64,000 nucleotides of DNA. It comes from Streptomyces sp. NBC_00102. Lineage in GTDB: Bacteria > Actinomycetota > Actinomycetes > Streptomycetales > Streptomycetaceae. Numbering within the stretch: the stretch's first letter is position 1; the number at the start of each line of letters is the position of its first letter. The notes below the pieces were generated by a model. The model did no database searches, was not told the origin of the DNA, and was given only the letters and a program-made list of their open reading frames with translations. The DNA lies in NCBI RefSeq assembly GCF_026343115.1, contig NZ_JAPEMC010000001.1, positions 1,488,001 to 1,552,000 of the forward strand, read 5' to 3'. Positions 7,666-32,395 of this stretch are shown in pieces. The translations under genes and the position numbers were made by a program.

Positions 7666-8697
7666 ATGGGCCGGCAGCTGGAATCACGCGGGGAACCGCG
7701 GCGGACGGTGCCTCAGGAGCCTCCGTACCGCCGGATCGCCGCCGTTCTGCGGCGGCGGATCGAGTCCGGGGAGCTCGGCCCCGGTGACCGCATCCCCTCC
7801 ACCCGGGAGATCGCCCGGCAGTGGGGGGTGGCCATGGCCACCGCGACCAAGGTCATCGCCGAGCTGCGGCACGAGGGGCTGGTACGGCCGGTGTCCGGCG
7901 TGGGCACCGTGGTCGGGAGCGCCGCCGGAACGCGGCGCCCGGCCCCGGCCGCTCCCCCGGCCCGGTCCGCCCCCAAGGCCCCCGGTACGACTCCGGGCGC
8001 ACCCCCTGTGCCGGGAGGAGCCGCCGCCCCGCTCTCCCGGGAACGGATCGTCGCCACGGCCATCGCGGTCGCGGACGCCGAAGGGCTGGAGGCGGTCTCG
8101 ATGCGGCGGGTGGCCAACGAGCTGGAAGCGGCGACCATGTCGCTCTACCGGCACGTGGCCGACAAGGACGAACTGCTGACACTGATGATGGACGCCGCCT
8201 GCTCCGGGTGGCGCTTCCCCGCCGATCACCCGGCGGGCTGGCGGGAGCGGCTGGAACTCGCCGCCCGGCTGCTGTGGGAGACCTTCCGCCGCCATCCGTG
8301 GCTCGCCCCCGCACTGTCGGTGACCCGGCCCCAACTTCTCACCGGGGCGCTGCCCTTCACCGAGTGGGTGCTTCAGGCCCTGGACGGGCGCGGGCTCGAC
8401 GGGCAGACGCACTTCACGATCCACATCACCCTGTTCAATTACGTGCGGGGAACGGCGATCAATATCGAGCCCGAAGTCGTCGCCGAGGAATTCACCGGCC
8501 TGACGAGCGACGAGTGGATGGACACGCAGGAATCACAACTCCGGGAGGCATTGTCGGCCGGAGCTTTTCCGACGCTGGAGCGCATCGCCGCAGCCGGTTA
8601 CGACTTCGATCTCGACATGCTTTTCGAGTTCGGTCTGCAACGCCTCCTGGACGGCTTCGCCGCCCTGGTCGACGGGGCGCGGCACCACCGCCCCTGA
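7666..8697 (+). CDS. Hybrid GntR (N-terminal) - TetR (C-terminal) transcriptional regulator
   Basis: 343 residues. Residues ~20-85 are a GntR winged helix (PYRRIAAVLRRRIESGEL, then PSTREIARQWGVAMATATKVI). A Pro/Ala-rich linker spans ~90-125. From ~128 there is a complete TetR protein: RERIVATAIAVADAEGLEAV, then MRRVANELEAATMSLYRHV as its helix-turn-helix, and a TetR_C-like ligand domain. The molecule thus has two DNA-binding heads. GGAGG sits 4 nt before ATG 7666. The gene ends inside the first unit of a tandem 20-bp repeat. Similar hybrids are known in actinomycetes; the ligand is unknown. Confidence 0.85.
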   Translation: MGRQLESRGEPRRTVPQEPPYRRIAAVLRRRIESGELGPGDRIPSTREIARQWGVAMATATKVIAELRHEGLVRPVSGVGTVVGSAAGTRRPAPAAPPARSAPKAPGTTPGAPPVPGGAAAPLSRERIVATAIAVADAEGLEAVSMRRVANELEAATMSLYRHVADKDELLTLMMDAACSGWRFPADHPAGWRERLELAARLLWETFRRHPWLAPALSVTRPQLLTGALPFTEWVLQALDGRGLDGQTHFTIHITLFNYVRGTAINIEPEVVAEEFTGLTSDEWMDTQESQLREALSAGAFPTLERIAAAGYDFDLDMLFEFGLQRLLDGFAALVDGARHHRP

Positions 8698-12188: not shown

Positions 12189-13496
12189 TCAGGCGATGCC
12201 GAGGTGGTGCTTGAGGGTCGGGCCCTCGTAGTCGTGCCGGAAGAGTCCGGCCCGGCGCAGCGCCGGCACCACGCCCCGGGTCAACAGGTCGAGCCCTTCC
12301 GGCAGATGGCTGTGCGAGAGCACGAAGCCGTCCGCCGCTCTCTCCCGGAAGAGCTCGCCCAGCTCGGCGGCGACCTGTTCGGGGGTGCCGGTGAAGCCGA
12401 GGTGCAGGCTGTTCTGCCGGTGCTTGATCGCCAACTGCCGCACGGTCTGCCCGTGATGGGTGCGCAGCCAGGCCGCGCCCCGCTGGTACCGCTCGTCGCG
12501 GAGCGCCTCGGCCTCGTCGAGCAGCGGTACGGGAATCGGCGCGTCGAGCGGGAGTTCGGCGAGCCGCAGGTACGGGCTGACGACCGTCTGGAGGTAGGCG
12601 ACGGCCTTGTCGATGTCGATGCCGTCGACCCATTCGCGTTCCAGGGCCCGCGCGTCGGCCTCGGTGGCGCCGAGGACGACATGGGTGCCGAGCAGGATCT
12701 TCAGCGACTCCGGGTCGCGGCCCTTGCGCCTGGCGCGGGCCTTCATGTCGGCGTAGAACGCCTGGGCGCTCCCGACGTCGTCGGCCGCGGCGAAGACGAC
12801 GTCGGCGTAGCCCGCGGCGAAGTCGCGGCCCTCCTCGGAGCGGCCGGCCTGGACGAGCACCGGCCGGCCCTGCGGCGGGCGGTGGATGTTGAGCGGGCCG
12901 GCGACCTGGAAGTGCTCGCCGTGATGGCCGAGCGTGCGGATCTTCGCCTCGTCCGCGAAGACGCCCGCCTCACGGTCGAAGACCAGCGCGTCGGGCTCCC
13001 AGCTCTCCCAAAGACCGATGGCGACGTCGACGAACTCCTTGGCGCGGGCGTACCGGACGGCCTTGGGAGGCAGCGGCTGGTCGCCGTAGTTCTCCTCGCC
13101 GACCGTGGAGGTGACCATGTTCCACCCCGCGCGACCACCGCTGAGGTGGTCCAGGGAGGCGAACTGGCGGGCCAGCGTGTACGGCGCGTTGAAGGTGGTC
13201 GACGCCGTACCGATGAGGCCGATGTGCTCGGTGCGCGCCATCAGCGCGGAGAGCACGACCATCGGCTCCAGGTAGTGCGGCGGGCCGCTCGCCCGTACCC
13301 GCGAGGGGTCGAGGCGCATGTTGTCGGCGCGGAACAGCGCGTCGAACTTCGCGTCCTCGGCGGCCCGGGCGACCTCGGTGAGCAGAGGGAGCGAGAAGGC
13401 CTCCTCGATGCGGCTGTCCTTCCGCCGCCAGAGCTGTCCGGCGGGCCGCCCGACCGACATCGCCAGGTGTATCCGCCGCGGCGGCCCGGCGGCCAC
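12189..13496 (-). CDS. LLM-class flavin-dependent monooxygenase (NtaA/SnaA/DszA family)
   Basis: 435 residues of the bacterial-luciferase-like TIM barrel. Family landmarks are EDAKFDALFRADN, LSALMARTEHIGLIGTAST, LDHLSGGRAGWNMVTS and GRPVLVQAGRSEEGR. Members use FMNH2 and O2 to cleave C-N or C-S bonds in chelators, sulfones and sulfonates. The GTG start at 13496 shares its G with the TAG stop of the rhodanese gene (TAGTG), implying translational coupling, and gives the usual N-terminal RRIHLAM strand. Paired with a rhodanese, it probably releases sulfur from an organosulfur substrate (inference). Confidence 0.85.
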   Translation of the reverse strand: MAAGPPRRIHLAMSVGRPAGQLWRRKDSRIEEAFSLPLLTEVARAAEDAKFDALFRADNMRLDPSRVRASGPPHYLEPMVVLSALMARTEHIGLIGTASTTFNAPYTLARQFASLDHLSGGRAGWNMVTSTVGEENYGDQPLPPKAVRYARAKEFVDVAIGLWESWEPDALVFDREAGVFADEAKIRTLGHHGEHFQVAGPLNIHRPPQGRPVLVQAGRSEEGRDFAAGYADVVFAAADDVGSAQAFYADMKARARRKGRDPESLKILLGTHVVLGATEADARALEREWVDGIDIDKAVAYLQTVVSPYLRLAELPLDAPIPVPLLDEAEALRDERYQRGAAWLRTHHGQTVRQLAIKHRQNSLHLGFTGTPEQVAAELGELFRERAADGFVLSHSHLPEGLDLLTRGVVPALRRAGLFRHDYEGPTLKHHLGIA

Positions 13497-13912
13497 TACC
13501 GGTCTCCGGCGGGCCGCGCTTCGGCGGCCGGCAAGGGATCGACGGTCGGCAGCGCCTCGGCCTGCCAGCGGGCGAAGCCGCCCCGTACGTGGGTGACGTT
13601 GCCGTACCCGTAGGCGTTCAGCTTCTCGATGATGGGGTCCGAACCGTATTCCGAGTTGCAGAAGACTACGATCTCGCTGTCCTCCGACAGGCCGGAGAGC
13701 TGCGGGATCAGGTTCGGCGATTCGGGGTCGAGCAGCTCGTCGGCGCGCTCCTTGCCCACTTTCACCGCGCCTTCGATGTCGCCCTTCGGAGCGTCCGGGC
13801 GGTTCCGGCGCACATCGATGAACAGGGCGCCCGACTGGCGCTTCTTCTCGGCGGCTTCGGGGTCGATCAGCTGGTCGGGGTGGTGTATGACGCGCGTCTC
13901 GGGATTGGCCAT
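13496..13912 (-). CDS. Single-domain rhodanese-like protein
   Basis: 138 residues with a rhodanese fold: SGALFIDVRRN near 28, IVVFCNSEYGSDPI with the candidate persulfide cysteine near 97, and VTHVRGGFARWQ near 115. The active loop (CNSEYGS) is one residue longer than the common CxxGxR loop, so it may prefer a larger oxyanion or act as a sulfur carrier. GAGGAGG precedes the ATG by about 9-11 nt. Co-transcribed with, and coupled to, the flavin monooxygenase, suggesting handling of sulfite or sulfane sulfur. Confidence 0.85.
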   Translation of the reverse strand: MANPETRVIHHPDQLIDPEAAEKKRQSGALFIDVRRNRPDAPKGDIEGAVKVGKERADELLDPESPNLIPQLSGLSEDSEIVVFCNSEYGSDPIIEKLNAYGYGNVTHVRGGFARWQAEALPTVDPLPAAEARPAGDR

Positions 13913-14233
13913 GCGAGCGATTCCTCCTCATTGTTCCGTGATCCGGCGGAAGCGGGCCCCGATGCATTGATCCGCATTTCTTGCGATGCCCGCCGCGCCG
14001 CGTCGAACTCTATTTCCTCAATACCCCGCACACAAGACCGAGGCAGCCTCGCACCGGCCCGAATCATAATTCCTCGCACATTTATGATTCGGACCGGTGA
14101 AAGAGTTTTCGGGCATGGAAAAGCCACGCCCCGGGAATGCCGGGTGCACGGTTTTCCGGAAAGGAGCTTCCGGCCGGAATTCCTGGACGGGATTTCCGGA
14201 CGGGATTTCCGGACGGGGCTCGGGGCCGACGGT
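13913..14233. other. 321-bp intergenic region with short direct repeats
   Basis: No gene seen. The region should hold the promoter of the rhodanese operon near its left end. Near its right end are two adjoining copies of GGACGGGATTTCC (14185-14197, 14198-14210) followed by a truncated third. The sequence is less GC-rich than its surroundings at 14030-14100. Confidence 0.6.
14118..14158. terminator. Imperfect hairpin, possible terminator of the reductase gene
   Basis: GGAAAA (14118-14123) and TTTTCC (14153-14158) close an imperfect stem whose centre is CCCGGGAATGCCGGG. It lies 76 nt beyond the aldo/keto reductase stop. Confidence 0.35.
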
Positions 14234-15211
14234 TCAGAAGCCGGCCGGGCGCCTCGGGGTGTACGGCGCCTCCAGGCGCGCGATCTCCTCGTCGTCGAGC
14301 TTGACGTCGACCGCCCCCACCAGGTCCTGGAGCTGCTCGACCGTGCTGACGCCGACGATCGGCGCGCTGACGGCGGGCTTGTGGAGGTTCCAGGCCAGGG
14401 CCACCTGCGCCCGGGTGATTCCCCGTTCGGCCGCGACGGCGCCCACCTCCTCCACGAGGGCGCGGTCCGACTCCACCGCCTGGTTGTAGTAGGTGGAACC
14501 CGGCTCGTCCGTCCGGAGCCGGTGGGTCACCGTGCCCCATTCGCGGGCCAGCCGGCCACGGGCCAGCGGGCTCCACGGGATCACGCCGATGCCCTCCTCG
14601 ATGCAGAAGGGGTGCATCTCGCGCTCCTCCTCGCGCATCAGCAGGCTGTAGTGGTCCTGCATCGAGACGAAGCGGGTCCAGCCGTGCAGGTCCGCCGTGT
14701 ACTGGGCCCGGACGAATTCGCGGGCGTGCATCGAGGAGGCACCGATGTAGCGGACCTTCCCGGAACGCACCAGGTCGTCCAGCGTCTGGAGGGTCTCCTC
14801 CAGCGGCACGGAACGATCCAGGCGGTGGATCTGGTACAGGTCGATGTAGTCCGTGCCGAGGCGGCGCAGGCTCTCGTCGACCTGGCTCAGGATCGCGCCG
14901 CGCGACAGCCCGCCGCCCTTGGGACCGGGGCCCATCCGACCGTTCACCTTGGTTGCGAGAATGACCTCCTCGCGCACCCCGAACTCCTTGATCAGGGCCC
15001 CGATGATTTCCTCGCTCGACCCGGCGGAGTAGACGTTCGCGGTGTCGAAGGTGTTGATTCCGGCGTCGAGCGCCGCCCGGACGACCGGCCGTGCCCCGTC
15101 GATTCCGGTCGACCACGGATGTGTTCCGCGATCGGGCTCGCCGAAGCTCATGCAACCGATGATCAGCCGCGAGGTGACCAGGCCGGACTTTCCGAGACGC
15201 GTGTATTCCAT
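14234..15211 (-). CDS. Aldo/keto reductase (YhdN/AKR11-like)
   Basis: 325 residues, a complete AKR barrel: RLIIGCMSFG, NTFDTANVYSAGSSEEIIG with catalytic Asp/Tyr, EVILATKVNGRMG with Lys, DYIDLYQIHRLD with His, and the C-terminal NADPH motif IVGVSTVEQLQDL. It reduces or oxidises small carbonyls or alcohols; substrate unknown. ATG 15211 has GAGGG about 9 nt upstream. It follows the sulfurtransferase gene after 130 nt of repeat-rich DNA, so it may have its own promoter while still belonging to the same leftward block. Confidence 0.85.
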   Translation of the reverse strand: MEYTRLGKSGLVTSRLIIGCMSFGEPDRGTHPWSTGIDGARPVVRAALDAGINTFDTANVYSAGSSEEIIGALIKEFGVREEVILATKVNGRMGPGPKGGGLSRGAILSQVDESLRRLGTDYIDLYQIHRLDRSVPLEETLQTLDDLVRSGKVRYIGASSMHAREFVRAQYTADLHGWTRFVSMQDHYSLLMREEEREMHPFCIEEGIGVIPWSPLARGRLAREWGTVTHRLRTDEPGSTYYNQAVESDRALVEEVGAVAAERGITRAQVALAWNLHKPAVSAPIVGVSTVEQLQDLVGAVDVKLDDEEIARLEAPYTPRRPAGF

Positions 15212-15273
15212 CGAATTTTTCCCTCGTGCGATACGGGTGCGGTGCGGGTGCGGTGCGGTGCGGGGTACGGAAT

Positions 15274-15336
15274 GCGATGCGGACGGGCCGCGTACGGGGT
15301 TGGTGCGTGCGCGATGCGGACGGGCCGCGTGCGGGG
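15274..15336. repeat. 26-bp direct repeat upstream of the reductase gene
   Basis: GCGATGCGGACGGGCCGCGT plus six more bases occurs at 15274-15299 and again at 15311-15336 with one mismatch. Just downstream (15235-15266) are irregular GGTGC/GCGGT micro-repeats. Confidence 0.8.
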
Positions 15337-15341
15337 CTTCG

Positions 15342-16184
15342 TCAGCCCGGTCCTTCGCCGCTCGCGACGGGCCGGGACGGGTCGTTGCTCCACTCCGACC
15401 AGGAGCCGGGATAGAGCCGGGCACGCATACCGAGGGCGTCCAGAACGAAAAGGCCCAGAGTGGCCGCGACGCCGCCGCCGCAGTACAGGCCGATGTCCGC
15501 GCCCTCCACCGCGCCGAGGGCGGCGTACCGCTCGCGCAGTTCGTCCAGCCCCTTCAGCCGGCCGTCCGGGCCCAGGTGCGCCGCGGCGGGCACGTTCAGC
15601 GCGCCGGGGATGTGCCCGCCGCCCTCCACCCCCGTGTAGGCGGCCGTGGGGCGGGCGTCGATCAGCGTGCCGGACCGGGCCAGCCCGGCGGCCTTCTCCG
15701 CGTCGAGCGTCGGCAGCGAGCCCGTCGTCACGGTGAACGTCCCGCCGCCCTCGGCCGGTTCACCGCTGCCGAGCGGGCCTCCGGCCGCCACCCACGCGTC
15801 GAGGCCGCCGTCCAGGACCCGGACGTCGGGGACGCCCGCCCAGGTGAGTACGAACCAAGCCCGGGTAGCCAGTTGGAGGTCCGTACGGGTGTGGACGACG
15901 ACGACCGTGTCCGCGTCGATCCCCCAGCGCCGCACCTGCCGCTGGATCTCCTCGGCGCCGGGCAGCGGGTACCTGCCGGAGTCCGGGCGGCGTTCGCCGG
16001 CGAGCTGCGTGGACAGGGCCACGTAGTGGGCGCCGGGCAGACGGTCCGCCGCCTCCGGGGCGTCCGCCGGCTCGCGGCCGATCTCCAGCAGCACGGGACC
16101 GCGTCCGTCACCCGGCCGTTCCAGCAGTTCCAGCAGTTGCCCGGCCGTGATCACGGCCCCGCGGGCACCGGTTTCCGTCGTCAC
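15342..16184 (-). CDS. Thiosulfate/3-mercaptopyruvate sulfurtransferase (two rhodanese domains)
   Basis: 280 residues with tandem rhodanese domains. The N-terminal, catalytically inactive one has HYVALSTQLAGE and WGIDADTVVVVHTR. The C-terminal domain carries LIDARPTAAYTG and the active loop DIGLYCGGGVAATLGLFVL with the persulfide cysteine. CGGGVAA resembles the CGSGVTA loop of mercaptopyruvate sulfurtransferases more than the thiosulfate type. GTG 16184 overlaps the stop of the FAD/NAD(P)-binding gene by GTGA and is preceded by GAGG. It moves sulfur from a mercaptoacid or thiosulfate to an acceptor. Confidence 0.87.
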   Translation of the reverse strand: MTTETGARGAVITAGQLLELLERPGDGRGPVLLEIGREPADAPEAADRLPGAHYVALSTQLAGERRPDSGRYPLPGAEEIQRQVRRWGIDADTVVVVHTRTDLQLATRAWFVLTWAGVPDVRVLDGGLDAWVAAGGPLGSGEPAEGGGTFTVTTGSLPTLDAEKAAGLARSGTLIDARPTAAYTGVEGGGHIPGALNVPAAAHLGPDGRLKGLDELRERYAALGAVEGADIGLYCGGGVAATLGLFVLDALGMRARLYPGSWSEWSNDPSRPVASGEGPG

Positions 16185-18271
16185 GCCCGTACCTCGCTCG
16201 TCGTGGTCCTGTGTCCCGCGGCCGTACCCGGCGACAGCGGTACGACGTCGTCGGGGCGGCCGTCCCAGATTCCGGCCAGCACGCTCCGGGCCGTACGGTC
16301 CGACTCGCGCAGGGCCACGGCGTCGGTGTTCGGCGCGGGCGCGGCCAGGGAGGACACCCGGGTGTCGCGCATGAGCACGCCGAGCGCGTAGAGCCGCGGC
16401 CCCGGGCCGTCGGGGTCCTGCGCGCCGGTGGGCTCGTGCAGGAGTCCGGTCAGCGGGTCGGCCCGGGGCGCGGCGGTGGGCACCGGACCGTCCGCCGAGT
16501 CCAGGTGGAAGCTCTCCGCGAGCCCCCGGCCGCTCAGCGCCCGCAGCAGCGGATCGGTCCCGGCGTGCAGGCTCGGGGCGGGTACGCGTGCCTCGATCAC
16601 CAGGTCCGAGCGGACTCCGGTGCCGGGTACGGCCGCCGAGCTCCACCACGGGTGCCCGCCGGAACCGGGCCGCTCCCCGGGGGTGGCGCGCGGTCCGAGG
16701 AACCGGACCACACCGGCGTCGTGCAGGGCCAGCAGCTCCCGCAGGCGCACCGGCGGCGGCCCGTTGTTCAGCCGGAACGCCAGGTCGACGAAGTCCGCGT
16801 ACTCCCCGAACCAGCTCTCGGCGGTGAGCCCGCCGTCCTGCACCGCGCCGAACAGCAGCTTGCGCGCCTTGCCGAAGGAGCGGTGGGCGACCTTGAGGCT
16901 GCTCGCGGCGCCCTTGGCGGTCTCGGCCAGGTCGAGGAGCAGGCGGCCGCGGATCGCGGCCTCGAACCCCGCCTGGTCGGTCCAGTCCCGCGCCGCGAGG
17001 GCCGCGTCGCCGTCCAGGTCGAGCCGGAGGTCCGGGTCCGGTACCGCGTCGGCGACGGCTTCCCGCCAGGCGTCGCTGTCGGGCGGCAGCGAGGCGAGCG
17101 CGTCCAGCAGGCCCGTCAGCGGGAACGCGAAGGCGTCCGGGTCCACCGTCGCGAGATGCGTGTAGTAGTCCCCGAGGGTGTCGCGGGCGATGGCCGGGCC
17201 CAGGCCGTCGAACCGTCCCGGCCGCGGCCGGCCGCGCAGCGCCCCGGTGAGGAAGCGGTGCCGGCCGGCCCCGTCCGGTACGTCCGTACCCGGGCGGCAC
17301 CAGTAGGGCACGCCCTGCCGCGAGGTGGCGTGCAGCACGGGCTCCCGGCCCGAGGGCTCGTACCGCAGGCCGTACGGTGCGGTGTCGTCGGGTACGAAGC
17401 GTCCGCCCCGGCCCGCCGTGAGCAGGGTGGTGACGTCGAAGAAGCTCAGCCCGAGCCCTTCGACCACGACGTCGGCGCCCGGCCGGGCCGCGGAGAGGTC
17501 CTGGTCGCTCGCGTTGTCGCCGCGCAGCCGCCGGACGGGCTTCCCCGGGCCGGCGGGCTTCTCGTGATCACCGGCGGCCCGGTGGGCGCGGGCCGGGGTG
17601 GACCAGCCGGTGCAGAGGACCACCGCGTCGGCGAGCAGCGGGGCGGCTCCGCCGGCGAGGGTGAGCCGGTAGCGCCCGCCGGTCCGCTCGACGTCGGTCA
17701 CCCGGTCGCGCCACCAGTCGTGGCGCACCCCCCGCGGAAGCGAGCCGGTCACCGTCTCGTGGCACCAGGTCAGATAGTGGCCGAGCAGGACGCGCGGGGT
17801 GCAGGTGTCGGCGGTCGCGGCCCTGACCGAGGCCGCCAGGACGGGGCGCCGCGCCAGGTCGGCGGCGAGCGCCCTGCCGAGGACGGGGCGGCCGGTTCCG
17901 TCGGTGGGCAGGCCCGCGTCGGGCGTACCGCCGTCGGCCGTCTCCCGCGCCGCCAGGGCGTCCGCGACCCGCCGCAGCCACTCCCAGAGGCTCGGCCCGG
18001 CGGCCTTCGGTCCTTCACTGCTGACCGAGGCGTCCGGCCACACGGTGAAGGCGGATGCCGGGGTGTTCATGAGCAGGTCGGCGCTCTGGTCGGTGCGCCA
18101 GATGCGGCCGGGGCCGGGCGGATACTCGTCCACGGAGACGAGCCGCAGCCGTCCGCCGGACGGCCGGAACTCCTCCAGGTTCGCCACCAGTCTCTCCAGG
18201 ACCGAGGTTCCCCGGAATCCGCCGCCCACCACGACCACGGTCCGCTCGGCCGGTACGGCTGACTCAGGCAT
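16181..18271 (-). CDS. FAD/NAD(P)-binding protein (NAD_binding_9 type)
   Basis: 696 residues beginning MPESAVPAERTVVVVGGGFRG, a classic dinucleotide-binding fold, then LLMNTPASAFTVWPD and VVLCTGWSTPAR. The family occurs as large cytosolic oxidoreductases or lyase-like proteins of uncertain chemistry, often in clusters with flavin monooxygenases. The ATG start overlaps the upstream monooxygenase stop by 8 nt, and its own stop overlaps the sulfurtransferase start by 4 nt, so it is firmly in the operon. It could be the reductase or N-/S-oxygenase step that precedes sulfur release (inference). Confidence 0.75.
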   Translation of the reverse strand: MPESAVPAERTVVVVGGGFRGTSVLERLVANLEEFRPSGGRLRLVSVDEYPPGPGRIWRTDQSADLLMNTPASAFTVWPDASVSSEGPKAAGPSLWEWLRRVADALAARETADGGTPDAGLPTDGTGRPVLGRALAADLARRPVLAASVRAATADTCTPRVLLGHYLTWCHETVTGSLPRGVRHDWWRDRVTDVERTGGRYRLTLAGGAAPLLADAVVLCTGWSTPARAHRAAGDHEKPAGPGKPVRRLRGDNASDQDLSAARPGADVVVEGLGLSFFDVTTLLTAGRGGRFVPDDTAPYGLRYEPSGREPVLHATSRQGVPYWCRPGTDVPDGAGRHRFLTGALRGRPRPGRFDGLGPAIARDTLGDYYTHLATVDPDAFAFPLTGLLDALASLPPDSDAWREAVADAVPDPDLRLDLDGDAALAARDWTDQAGFEAAIRGRLLLDLAETAKGAASSLKVAHRSFGKARKLLFGAVQDGGLTAESWFGEYADFVDLAFRLNNGPPPVRLRELLALHDAGVVRFLGPRATPGERPGSGGHPWWSSAAVPGTGVRSDLVIEARVPAPSLHAGTDPLLRALSGRGLAESFHLDSADGPVPTAAPRADPLTGLLHEPTGAQDPDGPGPRLYALGVLMRDTRVSSLAAPAPNTDAVALRESDRTARSVLAGIWDGRPDDVVPLSPGTAAGHRTTTSEVRA

Positions 18272-19608
18272 GGGCGGTCACCTCGGCGCGTCGCGCGGGC
18301 CGACGCAGCCCGTAGTTCGCGCGCAGGGTCGTCCCCGGGTACTCCGGCGGGCGCAGCCCGCGCCGCCGCAGCTCGGGGACCAGGTGCTCGACCATGGCGT
18401 ACGTTCCCTGGTGCAGCAGGTCCGGTTGGAGGTTGACGCCGTCCAGTGCCCCGGCGCGGAACCACTCCTCCAGCCCGTCGGCCACCGTGGCGGCGTCGCC
18501 GACGAGCAGGTTGTCCGAGCCGAGTCCGCCGCCGAGCCCCTGGAGGAACTCGCGTACGGCGCGCGGCTTTTCGCGCTCCACGAAGCGGTGCACCGCCAGC
18601 AGGTGGGAGCGGTAGGAACTGGGAGCTCTCGACCGGGGGGACCGGGGGCAGCGGGGCGTCGAGCGGGAGGTGGTTCAGGTCGTAGCCGCTGAACAGGGCC
18701 ACCTGTCCGAGCACGTGGCGGGGGTCGGCGAGTTGGTTCAACTCGGCTTCGAGCGCACGCGCTTCGGCCGTCGTGGCGGCGACGAGTACGCGGAAGCCCG
18801 CGAAGACGCGTATCGAGTCCGGGTCGCGCCCCTCGGCCTCGGCGCGGGCGCGCAGGTCCGTGCGGAAGTCGCGGCCCTCGTCGACGGCGCTGGCCGTCGT
18901 GTAGACGGAGTCGGCGTGCCGGGCGGCCAGGGAGCGGCCGTCGCCGGAGGAGCCGGCCTGCACGACGACGGGCCACCCCTGGGGCGGCCGGGGCGAGTTG
19001 AGCGGTCCGGCGATCCGGAAGTGCTCGCCCGCGTGGTCGACGGCGTGGATCTTCGCCGGGTCGACGTACCGGCCCCGCTCGCGGTCCTCGACGATCGCGT
19101 CGTCCTCCCAGCTGTCCCAGAGCTTCTTGACGGCCGTGACGAACTCGTCGGCCCTGCGGTAGCGGGCGGCGTGTTCGGGGAGGGCGTCCTGGCCGAAGTT
19201 CCGCGCGGCCGCCGGGATGGCGCTGGTCACCACGTTCCAGCCGAAGCGGCCGCGGCTGATCCGGTCCAGCGACGCGGTCTGGCGGGCGACGACGAAGGGG
19301 TCGGAGTACGTGGTCGAGACGCTGCCTATCAGGCCGATCCGGCTGGTGCCGACGGCCAGTGCGGACAGCAGGGTGAGTGGCTCGAACGCCGGCGCCACGG
19401 CGGCGGGTTCACGCGAGAAGGTGAGCTTGTCCGCGAGGAACAGGGCGTCGAATCCGCCGCGTTCGGCGGTGCGTGCGATGTCGAGCAGCGCGTCGATGTC
19501 GTTGATCTGCGCCAGGTCCACGGCGGGGTGGCGCCACGCGGCGGGGTGCGATCCGGCGGGCTTGACGTTCAGGTTCAGCCCGAGCGTCGACCGCGAGAGT
19601 CCGGTCAC
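18264..19608 (-). pseudogene. LLM-class flavin monooxygenase interrupted by a +1 frameshift
   Basis: A second luciferase-like monooxygenase (~448 codons). The first frame runs from GTG 19608 (AAGGAG six nt upstream) through FDALFLADKLTF, GTSRIGLIGSVSTTYSDPF, GRFGWNVVTS and WPVVVQAGSSGDGR to PPVESSQF. The correct continuation, YRSHLLAVHRFVEREKP through HLVPELRRRGLRPPEYPG, is in another frame. One surplus C (plus-strand G at 18615 or 18616) accounts for the switch and no other damage is seen. It could be a recent mutation, programmed shifting, or a sequence error. Its end overlaps the next gene by 8 nt as in an intact operon. Confidence 0.8.
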
Positions 19609-19785
19609 GATGGTCTCCTTGAGGTACATGTCCGGCCGGGCGGTGTCCGGCGGATCGAGGTGGGGCGGGCCGTGCCGGGGGGCGCGACGGGGCGAACCCC
19701 GGCTGACGCGGCACCCCCGACCCGGCCCGTGTTCCCCCGGACACCGCGCGGGGAGGCGACCCCGCCCCGAGCTGCGGGGCGGCCC

Positions 19786-21306
19786 TCAGGCGTAGAGGTC
19801 GCGCATCTGCCCGTGCATCGCGCGCCCGATCGCGTCGGCGATCCGGTCGATCGCCGCCGAATCGTCCGGTAGCCGGAGGGTGGCGATGCGGAGGTGGCCG
19901 GTGGCGGGTGGTTCGACGAAGCTGCGGCTGCCCGCGCCGACCGAGTAGCCGGCGGTGGCGAGGTCGATGAGGGTGTCGACCTCGCTGCTCACTTCGACCC
20001 AGAGGAACTGGGCGTTCGGGCCCGAGACGCTGGGGATCCCGCGGCGTTCCAGCGCGTCGGCGAGTGCCGCCTTGCGCTTGGCGTACACGCTCCGCGCCCG
20101 TTTGAGGGTCCGGGCGGTGGTGGAGCTCTCGATGAGGTGGGCCAGCGCGTCCTGCAGGATGCGGCTGTTGACGGCCAGCCCGTAGCTACGGCTGTCGCGG
20201 ATGCGGTCCACGGCCTCGCGCGGTCCGCCGATCACGGAGGTGCGCAGGTCGGACCCGTAGGACCGGCAGAACGACCGTACCCGTACGGCCTGTCCCGGCA
20301 GTACGGTGCCGAAGGTCGGGCCGGGTACGTGGGCGAGCGGGCCCACCGCGTCGTCCTCGACCACGACGACGTCGTCGAAGCGGGCGACGACCCCGGCGAG
20401 TTCGTCCATGCGCTCGGCGGTCGCGGGCGGCGTCATGGCGTACGGGCCGGTCGGCTGGAACAGGTAGGTGCGGGCGCCCTGCTCCAGAGCTCTGGCCAGG
20501 GCGGCCGGGTCGGCGCCGTGGGCGTCCGCGGGCACCTGGAACACGTCGAGGCCGAGGCGCCGGATGTGGTCCAGGAGGCCGGGGTTGATGGGTACGTCGA
20601 CGGCGAGCTTCCCGCTCGGCCCGGCCAGCGTGCCCACGCAGAGCAGGGCGGCCTCCGCACCGCTGCCTCCGGCGATGTACGCCTCGGCGGCGAACGGCCA
20701 GTCCCGCTGGGCGACGGTCCGCAGCCGGTCGGTGATGTACTGCCGGACGTTGGAGTGGAGGTTCGGGCTCCGCAGACCGGTGGCCAGTGCTTCGGTCAGG
20801 TCCGGGAGGAGTTCCGGGTCGGACGAGGCGTGCGCGAGCTCGCCGGTCTGGGCCGCCGGTACGGCTTCCGTGCCGGCCGGTTCGGCGGCGGGTGCCGGAC
20901 GGGGGCCGGCGAGGGGGTCGGCGACGACGGTGCCGCCCCGCCGCCGCGTCTCCACGAGCCCCTTGCCCCGCAGCACGGCGAGGGCGTCGCGGATGTTGCG
21001 GAAGCTCACCCCGGACTGCTCGCTCAGGGCGCGGATCGTGGGCAGCCGCGTGCCCGGCCGGATGGCCCCTTCCCGGATCTTCCCTTCGAGCAGCGGCACG
21101 ACGGACTCGGCGGACCCCGCCGCCGCGATGTGGTGGACGAGCCAGTCGTCGAGGTGATCGACGTCGTTGGTGTCCGGGGTTTCCTTGGTGAGTTCTTCGT
21201 CCATCGTCTCGTTCGCCCGCGCGGAGTCCGGGCCGGCCGGGGTGTGCGCCGGTCGGGCGTCACGACCGGCTGGACCGGCGGGCGCTGCCCCTCTCTTCGA
21301 CTCCAT
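19786..21306 (-). CDS. MocR-like GntR/aminotransferase-fold regulator lacking the PLP lysine
   Basis: 506 residues. A disordered N-terminus precedes a GntR winged helix at ~75-140 (VVPLLEGKIREGAI, then PTIRALSEQSGVSFRNIRDALAVL), followed by a fold-type I aminotransferase domain with VVVVEDDAVGPLAH. Where MocR proteins have FSK plus a distal Arg, this one reads SFCRSYGSDLR, so the Schiff-base lysine is Arg (codon 20263-20265). It may bind PLP loosely or another ligand. GGGGGA lies 5 nt before ATG 21306. It sits between importer and oxygenase genes and is the likely local regulator. Confidence 0.8.
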   Translation of the reverse strand: MESKRGAAPAGPAGRDARPAHTPAGPDSARANETMDEELTKETPDTNDVDHLDDWLVHHIAAAGSAESVVPLLEGKIREGAIRPGTRLPTIRALSEQSGVSFRNIRDALAVLRGKGLVETRRRGGTVVADPLAGPRPAPAAEPAGTEAVPAAQTGELAHASSDPELLPDLTEALATGLRSPNLHSNVRQYITDRLRTVAQRDWPFAAEAYIAGGSGAEAALLCVGTLAGPSGKLAVDVPINPGLLDHIRRLGLDVFQVPADAHGADPAALARALEQGARTYLFQPTGPYAMTPPATAERMDELAGVVARFDDVVVVEDDAVGPLAHVPGPTFGTVLPGQAVRVRSFCRSYGSDLRTSVIGGPREAVDRIRDSRSYGLAVNSRILQDALAHLIESSTTARTLKRARSVYAKRKAALADALERRGIPSVSGPNAQFLWVEVSSEVDTLIDLATAGYSVGAGSRSFVEPPATGHLRIATLRLPDDSAAIDRIADAIGRAMHGQMRDLYA

Positions 21307-21368
21307 GTGGTCCCCCAGTGGGCGCGTCCGGACGGGACCCGGCACGAGCCCCGCCCGGACGCGCCCGG

Positions 21369-22460
21369 TCACTGCGCTGCCACCTGATACACGTAGCCCT
21401 GCGGCGTGAACTTCGTGGCCCCGATGAAGTCCTTCGACCACTCCTCCACGACGGACAGCGGGTCTACGTCCTGGTAGCGGTCAGGGTAGGCGAACGAGGC
21501 GAAGAGCAGCGGGGAGATCTGGTTGCCCGCCAGGTCGAAGGCCCACGGGTTGAAGAGGAAGAGCTTGCCGTTCTTGACCGCCTTGAGGTTCTTCCAGCCC
21601 GGCCGGGCGAGCAGTTCGTCGGCGATCGCCCGGTAATCGGCATCGGAACGGCCGCCGTAGAGGTTGTCGGTCTCCACCACGATGACGTCGGGGTCGGCGG
21701 CCAGTACGGCGGCCGGGTCGGAGTCGATGGTGTTGCCGGGGCTGTCGGCGAAGATGCTCTCGACGTGGGCGTCGGTGAAGGCGAGCGTCTTGCCGCCCTC
21801 CACACCGCTGGTCTTGCCGGCGTTGTCCTCGTAGTACGCGGTGGCCCGCGTAGGCTCCTTCGCGGCCCGGGCGGTGAGGGCGCCGACCTTGTCGGTGAAG
21901 GCGAGGACCTTCGCCGCCTCCTTGTCGCGGCCCAGCACCTTGCCGAGCAGCTGGACGTTGGTCTTCCAGTCGTGCGACACCCAGGAGCTCACCACCAGCA
22001 CCTTGACGCCGGCGGACTTCAGCGAGGTCTCGGCCGCCTGCCACGGCTGGTTGGCGTACATCACGACGGCCTGCGCACCGCTCCCCACGATCTGCTCGTA
22101 GTTCAGCGCGTCCGCGCCGGCACCGATCGACAGGCTCGACGGGAAGCCGGCGAAGTTCTCCTGGTCGATGGTCTTCTCGTCGATGCCGACGATCTGGTCG
22201 CGGGCCCCGAGGGCGAGGGCGAGGTCGACATTGAAGCCGCCGACGACCGCGACCTTGCCGATCGGGCCGTCCGGGAAGGTGACCTCGCGCTTCGCGCTGT
22301 CCGTGACCGTGACGGAGGACGAACCGGCGCCCGATCCGTCCGCCGCCCCGGCGGAACCGTCCTGCGCGTTCCCGCCGCAGGCGGTCGCGAGCAGGGCCGT
22401 GACGGTCAGCAGGGCCGCTGAGGCCGCTGTGCGCAGCCTGCGGGTGGGTGGACGGTTCAC
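21369..22460 (-). CDS. Substrate-binding lipoprotein of a FecCD-type ABC importer
   Basis: 363 residues from GTG 22460, chosen because GAGGAG lies 4 nt upstream and gives a clean lipoprotein signal: basic RRLRTAASAALL, then LLATAC with the lipidated Cys near 28. The mature part is a class III (FepB/BtuF-like) binding protein: VAVVGGFNVDLALALGARDQIVGI and DPDVIVVETDNLYGG. The family carries siderophore-iron, haem, cobalamin and some other chelates. The surrounding sulfur genes make a metal-organosulfur ligand conceivable, but this is inference. Confidence 0.85.
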   Translation of the reverse strand: MNRPPTRRLRTAASAALLTVTALLATACGGNAQDGSAGAADGSGAGSSSVTVTDSAKREVTFPDGPIGKVAVVGGFNVDLALALGARDQIVGIDEKTIDQENFAGFPSSLSIGAGADALNYEQIVGSGAQAVVMYANQPWQAAETSLKSAGVKVLVVSSWVSHDWKTNVQLLGKVLGRDKEAAKVLAFTDKVGALTARAAKEPTRATAYYEDNAGKTSGVEGGKTLAFTDAHVESIFADSPGNTIDSDPAAVLAADPDVIVVETDNLYGGRSDADYRAIADELLARPGWKNLKAVKNGKLFLFNPWAFDLAGNQISPLLFASFAYPDRYQDVDPLSVVEEWSKDFIGATKFTPQGYVYQVAAQ

Positions 22461-22623
22461 TTCGCTCCTCGTGGATCTCTTCACGGATGTGTGCGCGGTT
22501 GTCGTGATGGGCGTCGTCATGTGTGTCGTCACGGTCTCTGGGCGAAGGGGCGGACGGCGAAGTCGGACGGCTGAACGGCCGGGCGGTGGGGCGGTGGGGC
22601 GGCCGGCCGGCGGACGCTGGGCG

Positions 22624-23493
22624 TCAGGGGGTGGCGCTGACGGGCAGCGGCTCTCCGGACCGCGGCTCGTCGGCGGGCGGCTCTTCGGTGGGCGGTGCTG
22701 CGACGGGCGGCGCTGCGGTGCGCGGAGACTCGATGACCGGGTGCACCTGGACGGTGCCGTCGCGCTCGAAGAGGTCGACCTCCAGGCCGTACACCTGCTC
22801 CAGCATCAGGCTGTCGTACACGTCGTTGGGGCGGCCGAACGCGACGATCCGGCCTCCCTGGAGGATCGCGACCTTGTCGCAGAAGCGGGCCGCCAGGTTG
22901 AGGTCATGGATGGCGATCAGCGAAACAAGGTTCCGACTGTGCGTCAGATGGCGTATGTGACGCAGGGTTTCGACTTGGTAGCGCAGGTCCAGTGCGCTGG
23001 TCGGCTCGTCCAGGAGCAGGATCTCGGGCTCCTGGGCGATGGCGCGGGCGATGAGGACGCGCTGCGCCTGGCCGCCGCTCAGGTCCCCCACCGAGAGGGC
23101 CGCCATGCCGGTGAGGCCCACGTGCTCGATCGCGGCGTCGACGATCTCCCAGTCGCGGGAGCGGGGCCGCATCCCGAAGTACGGCGTGCGGCCCAGCAGC
23201 ACCGAGTCACGCACGGAGAGCTGGAAGGTGGGCTCTCCCGACTGCGGTACGTAGGCGACCACCTTGGCGTGTTCGCTCATCCGCAGGTGGTGGAGGGGCT
23301 TGTCCTTGAAGCTGATCGAGCCGGTACGCAGCTTGTTGACGCGGGCGATGAGCTTGGTCAGCGTCGACTTGCCGGAGCCGTTCGGCCCGAGGAGTCCGAC
23401 GAACTCTCCCTGGCGGACGGCCAGGTTCACATCGTGCAGCACCGACCGGCTGCGGGAGTAGGAGAAGGCCACGCCTTCGACGGAGAGCGTCAT
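22624..23493 (-). CDS. FepC-type ABC transporter ATP-binding protein
   Basis: 289 residues with Walker A LGPNGSGKST, Q-loop PQSGEPTF, signature LSGGQAQRVLIARAIAQEPE, Walker B ILLLDEPTSALDL and switch His AIHDLNLAARF. The final ~45 residues are a Pro/Glu/Ala-rich tail. It starts at ATG 23493, overlapping the permease stop by ATGA, and is followed by a 163-nt gap before the binding-protein gene. It energises the FecCD permease. Confidence 0.88.
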   Translation of the reverse strand: MTLSVEGVAFSYSRSRSVLHDVNLAVRQGEFVGLLGPNGSGKSTLTKLIARVNKLRTGSISFKDKPLHHLRMSEHAKVVAYVPQSGEPTFQLSVRDSVLLGRTPYFGMRPRSRDWEIVDAAIEHVGLTGMAALSVGDLSGGQAQRVLIARAIAQEPEILLLDEPTSALDLRYQVETLRHIRHLTHSRNLVSLIAIHDLNLAARFCDKVAILQGGRIVAFGRPNDVYDSLMLEQVYGLEVDLFERDGTVQVHPVIESPRTAAPPVAAPPTEEPPADEPRSGEPLPVSATP

Positions 23494-24569
23494 GACTGGG
23501 CCAACGTCCCTTTCGAGAGTACGAGGTTGATGAAGAGGGGCGCGCCGATGAGCGCGACGACGATGCCTACCGGGATCACGACCGGAGAGAGCACGGCCCG
23601 GCCGACGACGTCGGCGTAGAGGATGAGGAGGCCGCCGGCGATGGCCCCGAACGGCAGCAGGTAGCGGTGGTCCGAGCCCACCACCAGGCGGGCGATGTGC
23701 GGGCCGACGAGCCCCACGAAGCCGATCACTCCGGTGAAGGAGACGACCACCGCGGTGAGGACGACCACCAAGACGATGAGCACCAGCCGGGTGCTGCGTA
23801 CGTTGACCCCGAGGCTCGCCGCGGCGTCGTCACCGGCGAAGGCGATGGCGTTGAGCGCCTTGGCGCGGGCGAACAGATAGGGCAGCGTGACGGCCAACAG
23901 GATCGTGACGACCAGCACTTGGTGCCAGGTGGCATCGTTGACCGACCCGAAGGTCCAGTGGACGATCTCGGCCAGCGTGTTCTCGTCGGCGAAGAACTGG
24001 GTGGCGGAGGTGAGCGCCTCGAAGAGCTGGAAGAAGGCCATGCCGACGAGGAGCAGCGTGATGGCCTTCATGCGTTTGAGGGACGCCACGCCGAGGACGA
24101 TCAGCGAGACGATCAGGCTGAAGAGCAGGGCGCTGAAGATCACGACGACCGAGGACGGGGTGTGCCCGGCCTTGTTGGAGAGCACGATGGCCAGCGCCGC
24201 GCCGAAGGAGGCGGCCGGGGAGAGGCCGAGGGTGTAAGGACTCACCAGCGGGTTGCGCAGCAGCCCCTGCATGACGACCCCGGAGACCGACAGGGCGGCT
24301 CCGGCAAGGAACGCCAACAGGGCTCTTGGCAGCCGGAGTTCGGTGACGATCACCTCCGTGGGCCGGAAGCTTTCGCTGGACTGCGCACCGAAGACGCGGA
24401 TGGCGATCGCGTGGAAGACGTCGCCCAGGCTGATGCCCGCCGTACCGATGACGACGGACAGCGCGATCGACAGGAGCGACACCACCAGGCTGACGCCGAT
24501 GATCACCGGCCGGGACGGTCGGCCCCACAGCGGTACGGCCTGGAAGGTACGCGCGAGTGCGTTGGACAT
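23490..24569 (-). CDS. FecCD-family ABC permease
   Basis: About 359 residues and roughly nine or ten membrane helices. Family landmarks are LRLPRALLAFLAGAALSVSG, MQGLLRNPLVSPYTLGLSPAA, VSFTGVIGFVGLVGPHIARL and the C-terminal PVVIPVGIVVALIGAPLF. Two adjacent ATGs (24572, 24569) follow GGAG, and the second has the better spacing. Only one permease gene is present, so it must act as a homodimer, as in BtuC. The long 5' leader contains the Cys-rich upstream ORF. Confidence 0.87.
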   Translation of the reverse strand: MSNALARTFQAVPLWGRPSRPVIIGVSLVVSLLSIALSVVIGTAGISLGDVFHAIAIRVFGAQSSESFRPTEVIVTELRLPRALLAFLAGAALSVSGVVMQGLLRNPLVSPYTLGLSPAASFGAALAIVLSNKAGHTPSSVVVIFSALLFSLIVSLIVLGVASLKRMKAITLLLVGMAFFQLFEALTSATQFFADENTLAEIVHWTFGSVNDATWHQVLVVTILLAVTLPYLFARAKALNAIAFAGDDAAASLGVNVRSTRLVLIVLVVVLTAVVVSFTGVIGFVGLVGPHIARLVVGSDHRYLLPFGAIAGGLLILYADVVGRAVLSPVVIPVGIVVALIGAPLFINLVLSKGTLAQS

Positions 24570-24868
24570 CATGCTCCGTGTCGCAGGCGGACGTCCGTGC
24601 GCGCCGCGGTTCAGCGCGCACGTCGGCAATGGATGGGGTGGATGGGGTGGATCACATGACCTATCCCGAATATGATCCGGCCCGTCGCGCTGCGGCAGGG
24701 TGACCGTTCGGGAACAGGTCGATGCGGGGTGACTCGGAAGGACGGAGGCCGGGACCGGTCAGAGCCGTACGCACGGGGTGCGGGACACCGATTCACCGGC
24801 GCACCGGTTCACCGGGGTGGCGGGCCGAGACGGGTCCGACCGGACGGAGCGCACCGGAAAGGTGCCTG

Positions 24869-24890
24869 GGCCGACCGGGAGAACTCGGCC
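24869..24890 (-). terminator. Small hairpin after the Cys-rich upstream ORF, possible attenuator
   Basis: GGCCGA (24869-24874) pairs with TCGGCC (24885-24890) around a 10-nt loop, starting 21 nt after the upstream ORF stop and 300 nt before the permease. Direct copies of ACCGNTTCACCGG (24787-24799, 24803-24815) follow. Attenuator function is inferred from position only. Confidence 0.35.
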
Positions 24891-24911
24891 GAACAGCGCA
24901 ATTTCAGCTGT

Positions 24912-25121
24912 TCAACAACAACAGGTACAGGAACGACAACACTCGAGCCGCACCGCACTCGCGCGCACGCGGTCGGTCTGCGGCAGCCCGGCACTCGGCG
25001 CCGGCATCCGGTTCGCGGCGGGGAAGGACCGCATCGCTGCCTCCGCGAAGTTCCCGGTCACGGTCCACCTCCCTCGTCGAATCCCTCTGCGCGGCGAATC
25101 TTTTTTCTGATCCGCCATCAC
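24912..25121 (-). CDS. Cys-rich upstream ORF (candidate cysteine-sensing leader peptide)
   Basis: A 69-codon ORF reading GTG ATG GCG GAT CAG, ending LECCRSCTCCC then TGA. Six of its last nine residues are Cys, all encoded by TGT, the minor Cys codon in this genome. A strong promoter lies immediately upstream (25129-25158), and the first G of GTG falls 7 nt after the -10, so the message is probably leaderless. Mycobacterial leaderless small ORFs with terminal poly-Cys tracts attenuate sulfur genes when Cys is plentiful. Here the next genes are an importer and sulfur-handling enzymes. It may act by ribosome stalling rather than as a protein. Confidence 0.6.
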   Translation of the reverse strand: MMADQKKDSPRRGIRRGRWTVTGNFAEAAMRSFPAANRMPAPSAGLPQTDRVRASAVRLECCRSCTCCC

Positions 25122-25128
25122 GCAACGC

Positions 25129-25158
25129 ATCATATGGGGGTGGCGTGAAGGATTTCAA
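25129..25158 (-). promoter_or_regulatory. Strong promoter of the leftward importer/sulfur operon
   Basis: On the minus strand, -35 TTGAAA (25158-25153), an 18-nt spacer and -10 TATGAT (25134-25129). These are the best vegetative-type hexamers in the region. The predicted start is near 25121. Confidence 0.65.
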
Positions 25159-25329
25159 TCCCTGCCCGGTCACTTCTGCCGTTCCAGGGAGCCGAGTTGA
25201 GTCCGAAACGCGCCGCGCTCCGGGACACTCGTACGGTAAAACGCGAGGTGGGAGGCGGTGTGCGGGTGAGCGGGGAGCACGTTCGCGCCATGCGTCACGC
25301 CGATGGACCGGGACCGGATCACTGGCGGC

Positions 25330-26250
25330 TCAGAGCAGTAGCCCGGGATCCGAGGTGATCTCCACGACGCACCACGGGTCGTAGGGCAGGGTGGCGAGCC
25401 CGTCCCGCAGCGCCCGCCTCACCCGGTCCTCGCCGGCCACGTCCCATCTGCCGGACGGCACCACGAACGCGACCTCGACGTACAGCTTCTGGCCGACCTT
25501 GCTGGTGCGCACGACCGGGTCGGGAAGCCCTTCCGCGGCCCGCACCCGCTCCACCACCTCCCCCACCCGCCGCTGCACGGCCTGTTCGGGGGCGGACTCC
25601 AGCAGCTCGGACGCGGCCTGCCGGAGCATCCGTACGGGCAGCGCGCCGAGCAGTGCGCAACTCAGCAGGACCAGCACCGAGTCCGCGTACTCCTGCGCGC
25701 CGCTCCACACCGTGGTGCCCAGCACCAGCGCCACCACGCCGCCCACCGCGATGAGGAGGCTGGTCACCGCCCCCGCGAGCCAGACGGTGGCCTCCGTGCG
25801 GATCAGGTCCGACCGCGGACCGCGCCGGGCCAGATGGCCGTACGCCGCCAGGCACGCCAAGCCGGTCGCCGCTCCGTACACGGCCAGACCCACCGCCGCC
25901 ACCTCGGAGCCGCCCTCCAGGATGACCCGTACCGCCTCCACCGCGGCGTAGCCGAGCGTCCCGATCAGGGCGAGGCCCTGCACCCCGACGACCACCGGTA
26001 CGAGCGACTCGCGCCCGAACGGGAAGCGCCGCGTCGGACCGGCCGCGGCGATGCGCGAGGCGCGGAGCGCGAGCCAGGAGAGGCCGATGCCGAGGACGGT
26101 GTAGACGCCGTCGAGCAGGATCACCTGCGACCCGGCGACGAGCCCCCACACCAGGCCCACACCCGCGAGCGCGACCGAGAACGCCATCGAGACACGCAAC
26201 GCGCACTGTTCCTGCCGCGCCGTCTCCGGGGACGGCCCTCCGTCTGCCAC
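25330..26250 (-). CDS. Cation diffusion facilitator-like efflux transporter
   Basis: 306 residues from GTG 26250. Six hydrophobic segments occur within the first ~205 residues (LVWGLVAGSQVILLDGVYTV is the first family motif, and FPFGRESLVP follows), then a cytoplasmic domain ending VEITSDPGLLL. The usual CDF zinc-site Asp/His pairs are only partly kept (LLDGVY and EYADSVLVLL provide Asp), so the metal is uncertain. The family exports Zn, Mn, Co or Fe using the proton gradient. It may not belong with the importer operon, whose promoter lies downstream of it. Confidence 0.75.
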   Translation of the reverse strand: MADGGPSPETARQEQCALRVSMAFSVALAGVGLVWGLVAGSQVILLDGVYTVLGIGLSWLALRASRIAAAGPTRRFPFGRESLVPVVVGVQGLALIGTLGYAAVEAVRVILEGGSEVAAVGLAVYGAATGLACLAAYGHLARRGPRSDLIRTEATVWLAGAVTSLLIAVGGVVALVLGTTVWSGAQEYADSVLVLLSCALLGALPVRMLRQAASELLESAPEQAVQRRVGEVVERVRAAEGLPDPVVRTSKVGQKLYVEVAFVVPSGRWDVAGEDRVRRALRDGLATLPYDPWCVVEITSDPGLLL

Positions 26251-31990: not shown

Positions 31991-32395
31991 AGGCAGACGA
32001 GTCGGGCTGTACGCCGGGTTCTGTCGCCCGGTCGCCTCGCGGCGGCCGGGGAGACGGCCATCCATCTAGGACCGGCATTGCTGCCGGCCTCCTGCGGTCT
32101 ACCCGCGAACTCGGGCGGGCAGCCCTCGAACGTTCGCGCAGGGCCGCCTTGCGGCGGTCCTTCTTGACCTTGCTCCGGGTGGGGTTTACCTAGCCGCCTG
32201 AGTCACCTCAGGCGCTGGTGGTCTCTTACACCACCGTTTCACCCTTACCCGGGACCTGGGTCCCGGGCGGTCTGTTTTCTGTGGCACTGTCCCGCGAGTC
32301 ACCTCGGGTGGCCGTTAGCCACCACCCTGCCCTGTGGAGCCCGGACGTTCCTCGGGGAGATCCGGGGATCTCCACGCGGCCGTCCGCCCGGCTCG
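31991..32395 (-). ncRNA. rnpB: RNase P RNA, actinobacterial type A
   Basis: Read on the minus strand it starts CGAGCCGGGCGGACGGCC, followed by CCGAGGAACGTCCGGGCTCC, ACAGTGCCACAGAAAACAGA and GGTAAGGGTGAAACGGTGG, with GTAAGAGACCACCAGC, the conserved P4 and J regions of RNase P RNA. It ends TAGATGGATGGCCGTC, then CAGAACCCGGCGTACAGCCC and GACTCGTCTGCC. Length is about 405 nt, as expected for Streptomyces. It is the catalytic subunit that trims the 5' ends of tRNA precursors. The ends are estimated from the pairing of the terminal helix. Confidence 0.95.

Follow-up and report, generated by a model that had tools for sequence, protein, structure and literature searches.

We conclude that a short open reading frame (ORF) on the minus strand of a Streptomyces sp. 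NBC_00102 contig, located in front of importer and sulfur-type genes and ending in a tract of TGT cysteine codons, is probably a cysteine-responsive attenuator whose translation is led by a Shine-Dalgarno (SD) sequence. From the sequence comparisons given below, we put the probability of this reading at about 0.72. All coordinates refer to the window, i.e., the whole stretch of 64,000 nucleotides that was analysed; the features are listed in Table 1. A first-pass annotation of this DNA had described a leader with a cysteine-rich end in front of importer, monooxygenase, and sulfurtransferase genes, and the comparison with two orthologs supports that description. Its start site, a leaderless GTG 69 codons from the stop, is not supported by the comparison.

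Table 1. Features of the leader region and of the genes downstream (window coordinates; RNA elements and gene functions are predictions)
Feature	Position	Strand	Evidence
Promoter: -35 TTGAAA (25158-25153), 18-nt spacer, -10 TATGAT (25134-25129)	25129..25158	-	Sequence scan; counterparts in four other leaders
5' RNA hairpin from the predicted +1	25089..25121	-	Fold z -5.0 (window), -2.5 (L051), -5.8 (L052)
SD GGGAGG, 6 nt before GTG 25061	25068..25073	-	Same in three orthologs; G-rich equivalents in L021, L232
Leader ORF, 49 codons plus stop: VTGNFAEAAMRSFPAANRMPAPSAGLPQTDRVRASAVRLECCRSCTCCC	24912..25061	-	Start at 25061 matched in each of the five leaders
Cys tract TGT TGT CGT TCC TGT ACC TGT TGT TGT	24915..24941	-	TGT TGT invariant in five leaders
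Hairpin right after the Cys tract (GAACAGC/GCTGTTC)	24891..24913	-	z -2.2; 10/200 shuffles fold as well
Untranslated C-rich gap, 342 nt, without intrinsic terminator	24570..24911	-	Scan and composition
RNA stem in the gap, kept in three orthologs	24655..24729	-	z -2.8; 2/200 shuffles fold as well
FecCD-type importer permease	23490..24569	-	PF01032
Importer ATPase	22624..23493	-	PF00005; NCBIfam iron/heme/B12-type ATPase matches, those shown below cut-offs
Substrate-binding lipoprotein	21369..22532	-	PF01497
MocR-type GntR/aminotransferase regulator	19786..21441	-	PF00392 and PF00155
NtaA/DmoA-type FMN monooxygenase, read in two frames	18264..19629	-	Apparent frameshift at about 18611-18625
FAD/NAD(P)-binding protein	16181..18271	-	PF13454
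Rhodanese-type sulfurtransferase, 3-mercaptopyruvate sulfurtransferase-like	15342..16184	-	PF00581; NF008557 94.9 bits, below cut-off of 250
Aldo/keto reductase, start uncertain	14234..15424	-	PF00248
Second NtaA/DmoA-type monooxygenase, start uncertain	12189..13967	-	TIGR03860 449.6 bits, cut-off 279.7

Orthologs and divergence of the leader

A permease search against a species-level genome collection returned 67 loci, two of which are close orthologs: L051 from Streptomyces sp. JH14, with a permease 96% identical to that of the window, and L052 from S. abyssomicinicus, with 90% identity. At an E-value of 1e-90, the permease was found in 4 of 150 genomes of the genus. Three of these, loci L028-L030 (permease 60-61% identical), are uninformative on the leader, because they have a substrate-binding gene in front and the stretch stops short of the operon start. 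Since the leader family is rare, the whole comparison is limited to five leaders: those of the window, L051, and L052, and two paralogous leaders, L021 and L232, described further below.

L051 and L052 share the promoter, SD, start, and TGT cysteine tract. The conserved stretch starts at the -35 element, and identity is near background upstream of it. In the 150 nt above the -35, identity among the three orthologs (window included) is 37-44% (20 shuffles of one leader pair gave a mean of 37% and a maximum of 50%). It is 66-74% between the -35 and the SD, 72-78% between the SD and the cysteine tract, and 44-61% in the gap that follows the leader. The DNA alignment between the start and the tract has a single gap of three bases. 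When the terminal cysteine codons are set against the rest of the ORF, an alignment that had been suggested with the first-pass annotation, the tract is kept in both orthologs and the remaining peptide drifts; the ratios of nonsynonymous to synonymous codon differences in the three pairs are 22:2, 22:3, and 25:4. Only M1, R11, P20, P27, R38, L39, C41, and C42 are invariant in four leaders. With the frame and the cysteine tract kept while the peptide drifts, the ORF looks like an attenuator leader.

Cysteine codons at the end of the leader

The minus-strand frame ends in LECCRSCTCCC, and six of its last nine codons are for cysteine, all TGT, as first described. That TGT is disfavoured here was also borne out: the genes of the window, 41 of them as roughly called, contain 27 TGT versus 118 TGC codons (27 of 145), and six TGT out of six in the tail then has a P of about 4e-5. 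The window holds 1086 stop-to-stop tails that are 11 codons or longer, and none except that of the leader has over three cysteines in its last 11 codons. At 12 comparison loci (11 Streptomyces records, some of them near-duplicates, plus L021 from the same genome), four or five cysteines occur in 10 of 2853 tails and six in none. By itself, this composition is suggestive and not proof; thus conservation decides whether the leader is real.

All but one of the 24 cysteine codons in the five leaders are TGT, and the single TGC lies outside the tract. The tract holds six cysteines in the window, five in L051, seven in L052, and just two in L021 and L232, with varying spacing (CCRSCTCCC, CCCRCC, CCRCCCRRCC, CCRPVDV). 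Seven more codons follow the tract in L051 and L052.

Promoter and start of translation

A scan of both strands from 24000 to 26000 confirmed the promoter that had been noted on the minus strand; it is the sole sigma-70-like site in this region (shuffled mean 0.0, sd 0.1). Its counterparts are TTGATT-17-TATGAT in L051, TTGATT-18-TAAGAT in L052, TTGAAT-17-TATGAT in L021, and TTGTGC-17-TATGAT in L232.

In the window, GTG 25121 stands 7 nt past the -10 and opens a 69-codon minus-strand frame that runs to the stop TGA at 24914-24912. The first-pass annotation took this GTG as the start and overlooked a second in-frame GTG at 25061, which has an SD and is the conserved start; the orthologs begin with GTG (L051) and ATG (L052). 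Another possible leader start in the window is ATG 25034, which is also in frame, is preceded by GGAGG at 5 nt, and was the start chosen by an ORF scan; L052 has GCG at this place and no start codon.

There are two main readings of the start. In one of them, a ribosome would load at the 5'-terminal GTG 25121 and read all 69 codons, as in a leaderless poly-Cys attenuator of the mycobacterial type. A GTG is indeed found 6-7 nt past the -10 in all three orthologs, and in L051 and L052, the frame that starts at +1 closes after 20-21 codons and overlaps the leader start (GTGA/ATGA). Coupling through overlaps of this RTGA type is described for mycobacterial leaderless ORFs in passages of PMC4633059. 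However, in both orthologs this +1 frame and the Cys leader are in different reading frames; the distances from the +1 GTG to the leader start are 60 nt in the window, 62 nt in L051, and 59 nt in L052, so the 69-codon fusion is found in the window only. Neither of the two paralogous leaders has an RTG at +1, the 5' end of the window transcript, including the GTG, falls within a predicted stem, and the inner start is served by the conserved SD. The leaderless reading is thus unlikely, and these sequence features make SD-led initiation at 25061 the likely one.

RNA structure of the leader and the gap

The 5' hairpin (helix 1) is paired in 100% of cells of the ortholog alignment, with three one-sided and no two-sided changes; ATCA in this region is invariant in the five leaders. 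The stem in the gap (helices 5 and 6) has one two-sided change, and 86.7% and 94.4% of its cells are paired. From these folds, the 5' hairpin and the stem at 24729-24655 are likely to be real RNA elements. The hairpin directly after the cysteine tract is absent from the orthologs; L051 and L052 form other hairpins there. The piece that contains helix 2, before the tract, is no more stable than shuffled sequence when folded alone (z 0.14), and the DNA conservation before the tract also fits this helix.

A 52-pair structure for the three-sequence alignment pairs 96.2% of cells, versus 26-49% when it is slid along the alignment; its pairs come from a consensus fold of the very alignment on which it was scored. 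Of 500 shuffles, 60 matched it in paired cells together with two-sided changes, 54 in covariation score, and 195 in pair types. The classical 1:2/3:4 attenuator topology was dropped, because the cysteine codons follow the first hairpin instead of lying within it and some of the helices around the tract lack conservation.

The length of the gap assumes that the permease starts at ATG 24569, which was picked by ortholog alignment. The scan from 24000 to 26000 found no intrinsic terminator, i.e., no stem-loop followed by a T-run (shuffled mean 0.6); GC-rich hairpins without a T-run appear in the folds. L021, L232, and L051 share a GC-rich motif, GCGCTGAGCGC, at or after the leader end, which could form a hairpin, again without a T-run. 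The excess of C over G in the gap is +0.105, a value reached by 141 of 3184 stretches of the window, and a gap so rich in C and poor in G is no more than suggestive of Rho-dependent control. Over the 342 nt, single and consensus folds revealed no consistent hiding of the permease SD.

At 24678-24649, the window contains an imperfect inverted repeat, GGATCATATTCGGGATAGGTCATGTGATCC, which is largely conserved in the orthologs and whose right arm is also part of the gap stem. It may serve the MocR-type regulator as an operator, or the RNA may adopt an alternative fold here.

Genes downstream of the leader

Strand and spacing suggest that the genes downstream of the leader form one transcript. The transporter and the sulfur and flavin monooxygenase genes reported earlier are present; the sulfurtransferase and the rhodanese, listed as separate genes, are read here as one gene. 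The label of a sulfur operon, which is based on the rhodanese and the LLM enzymes, is probable. The first NtaA/DmoA gene is in two pieces, covering positions 1-324 and 326-422 of the model, and its counterpart in L052 is one open frame; the break is either a real frameshift or a sequencing error. Elsewhere on the minus strand of the window, 31994-32395 encodes an RNase P class A RNA (RF00010, 296.3 bits).

A second leader in the same genome

A paralogous leader was found in the same genome at L021:4116-4289 (E-value 1.3e-6). It ends in LLCCRPVDVTPAGHPRSAR, and the plan of promoter and SD is that of the window. The genes behind it encode an NlpA-type lipoprotein, an acyl-CoA-dehydrogenase-like enzyme, an LLM monooxygenase, an ABC ATPase (identified by reading), and a permease; the same leader type is thus used again in front of another sulfur-type operon. 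In S. abyssomicinicus, the counterpart lies at L232:8785-8937 on the minus strand, with a leader ending in LLCCRPVDVTSA and an LLM monooxygenase that is 83% identical. A search of 392 genomes for the second operon's binding protein gave a match in 1, its own.

Leaders in front of importer relatives

Cys leaders were accepted in 6 of the 67 importer relatives: L051, L052, and four Georgenia/Oceanitalea loci (L096, L097, L098, and L100), in which an SD-led leader ends in CMCCCPA with a terminal TGT TGT TGT. In L096, the leader is followed by genes for a CMD protein, a substrate-binding protein, a permease, an ATPase, and an FAD/NAD(P) protein, with the binding protein and the ATPase identified by reading. 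A profile of four Streptomyces leaders gave no match in either of two Georgenia-type genomes; by that test, the Georgenia leaders are unrelated to those of Streptomyces. Short in-frame repeat runs of the type ADSRLPADSRLTADSR occur at the ends of Georgenia genes (L096, about 4550-4750 and 7796-7920).

Nine other loci have weaker Cys-tail ORFs that were not accepted, and the Cellulomonas ORF in L065, which ends in CAACCLGC, was left out as uncertain. In six of the 67 loci (L063, L066, L072, L074, L110, and L115), less than 1 kb precedes the match. Across the 67 loci, we counted 16 Cys-tail ORFs in 15 loci (first 6.2 kb, plus strand) versus 25 on the whole control strand. The raw count cannot separate signal from noise; SD, position, and conservation do.

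Searches for the leader family

The genus-wide leader search gave matches in 19 of 295 genomes at an E-value of 0.01 and in 4 of 392 at 0.001, with a strong match in the genome of the window only. The three matches at 0.001 from other genomes (L205-L207) are not leader-like; in L205, CCRAC lies inside a 467-codon open frame. None of the four that were read among the 18 other matches at 0.01 (L033, L034, L035, and L040) is leader-like, nor are L022, L023, L024, and L026, further matches from the search that gave L021.

NCBIfam contains models of Cys-rich mycobacterial leaders, NF042933 (Ms5788A) and NF042936 (Ms4527A), for which no leader match was listed up to an E-value of 10 (HMMER filters drop most matches above 0.1). 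Neither these two models nor NF042934 (cis_reg_atten) matched the window leader, its orthologs in L051 and L052, L021, or the Georgenia leaders. Two leaders of the same genome served as positive controls for NF042934 (L192, 35.6 bits; L191, 28.5 bits; cut-off 27), and in this genome the model has 11 matches at an E-value of 0.1, 9 of them over the cut-off, counted as profile matches alone. A search for RRHVDL-type ORFs between the genes of the 67 loci returned a single match, in L075 (minus strand), which is not leader-like.

At 20 NF042934 loci from three genomes (L212-L231), 11 leaders could be read. Ten have a cysteine at the conserved site, following SSA or SCL, and the codon is TGT in all ten; these cases are not independent, because several of the leaders are orthologs of each other. 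TGC probably dominates in these genomes, as it does in the window, and regulatory cysteine codons may be marked by TGT in general.

Contig 4 of the same genome carries two NF042934-type leaders, RRHVDLLRVSSALC at L191:4200-4349 (plus strand) and RRHVDLARVSSAVC at L192:16132-16227 (minus strand), in a region where several LLM monooxygenases are encoded together with an SsuA-like binding protein; these are probably further sulfur operons under leader control. Another 13 stretches of this genome with LLM, SsuA-like, or FecCD-type genes contained, besides the L192 leader, only scattered Cys-tail ORFs.

Proposed mechanism and alternatives

In the SD-led attenuator that we favour, the strong promoter would give a transcript that begins with the 5' hairpin and continues with the 49-codon leader (25061-24912), whose cysteine-rich end uses TGT only. 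With charged Cys-tRNA plentiful, the ribosome would reach the stop codon and leave, the gap would be exposed, and expression of the operon would be low. With charged Cys-tRNA scarce, the ribosome would stall on the cysteine tract and shield or refold the RNA just downstream, and the importer and sulfur-salvage genes would be expressed. Both the stalling and the direction of the response are what we infer from the arrangement. For the output step, termination that is Rho-dependent or occurs at a hairpin without a U-run is somewhat favoured over hiding of the permease ribosome-binding site, because the gap is long, C-rich, and without an intrinsic terminator.

Upstream ORFs of the CruR type respond to copper, and a Cys-rich nascent peptide could likewise sense a metal or the thiol/redox state directly instead of Cys-tRNA charging. 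The CC and CxC motifs could bind metal, and model names connect FecCD-type transporters elsewhere with metal chelates and B12; however, the spacing of the cysteines varies among the leaders while the TGT codon is kept, and the downstream enzymes resemble sulfur salvage, so we regard direct sensing as improbable.

If the ORF encoded an ordinary, small, Cys-rich protein that has a function of its own, the open frame and SD kept in three orthologs would be accounted for, yet the predominance of nonsynonymous differences and the few invariant positions (eight in four leaders) argue strongly against it. Profile and protein-collection searches likewise found no family or homologue: a large protein collection searched with the leader gave no candidate, and with the four-leader alignment it gave 61 candidates, none at an E-value of 1 or better. 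Equally remote is a chance ORF without regulation; the Cys-tail ORFs on the control strand and the occasional Cys-rich tails at other loci show that such ORFs arise, but the leader tail is unique among the 1086 of the window and its promoter, SD, start, and tract are conserved, whereas the sequence above the promoter is not.

Comparison with known systems

On balance, we give even odds to a wider interpretation: that these SD-led poly-Cys leaders are a separate family with its own 5' hairpin, which controls at least two sulfur operons in a few Streptomyces, and that, together with the independent CMCCC leaders of Georgenia, they mark a FecCD-type family, usually read as siderophore or B12 transporters, as a cysteine-controlled organosulfur importer. 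If the attenuator reading is right, cysteine attenuation also works from SD-led leaders across long untranslated gaps, a FecCD importer is tied to sulfur supply, and TGT at regulatory cysteines is a handle for finding such leaders in GC-rich genomes.

To our knowledge, tested cysteine attenuation is known only from mycobacteria; no tested Streptomyces cysteine attenuator is among the literature matches listed, a set whose scope leaves out most subscription journals. In work by Canestrari et al. from 2020 (Mol Microbiol 114:93), a ribosome stalled on a mycobacterial leaderless polycysteine short ORF reportedly frees the ribosome-binding site of the next gene. Mycobacterial polycysteine short ORFs are placed before sulfur and cysteine genes, with cysteine as the signal, in passages of PMC13236596, PMC9031893, and PMC9094748. 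The window leader resembles the leaderless ORFs in being short and in ending with cysteine codons before sulfur-type genes. In contrast to them, the leaders described here are SD-led, with 65-69 nt between the -10 and the start and 49-57 codons; the window leader is followed by a 342-nt gap, and in L051 and L052 the tract is not terminal.

The NF042934 leaders (RRHVDL...SSAxC) are also actinobacterial, have a cysteine near the end encoded by TGT, and are present in the same genome; however, the family described here has CC or a cysteine run and no RRHVDL. The CCRPVDV of L021 and L232 could, as a guess, be a degenerate form of RRHVDL.

Seliverstov et al. (2005, PMC1262725) predicted cysteine leader peptides for cys operons in Mycobacterium and P. 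acnes and for cbs in B. longum; these have runs of cysteine codons near the stop and no terminator hairpin, and Rho is proposed, all of which parallels the window leader. The genes behind them are different, and the Cysteine section of that paper gives no Streptomyces case.

The metL leader of metNIQ in S. lividans, MSTTSDRTPATEATTTPGARCMCRRMCAF, is also from Streptomyces, has three cysteines near its end, and precedes a sulfur amino-acid importer; passages of PMC8079986 report it as leaderless and methionine-related, and its sequence differs from that of the window leader. We suggest that the metL leader might also be read as cysteine-responsive.
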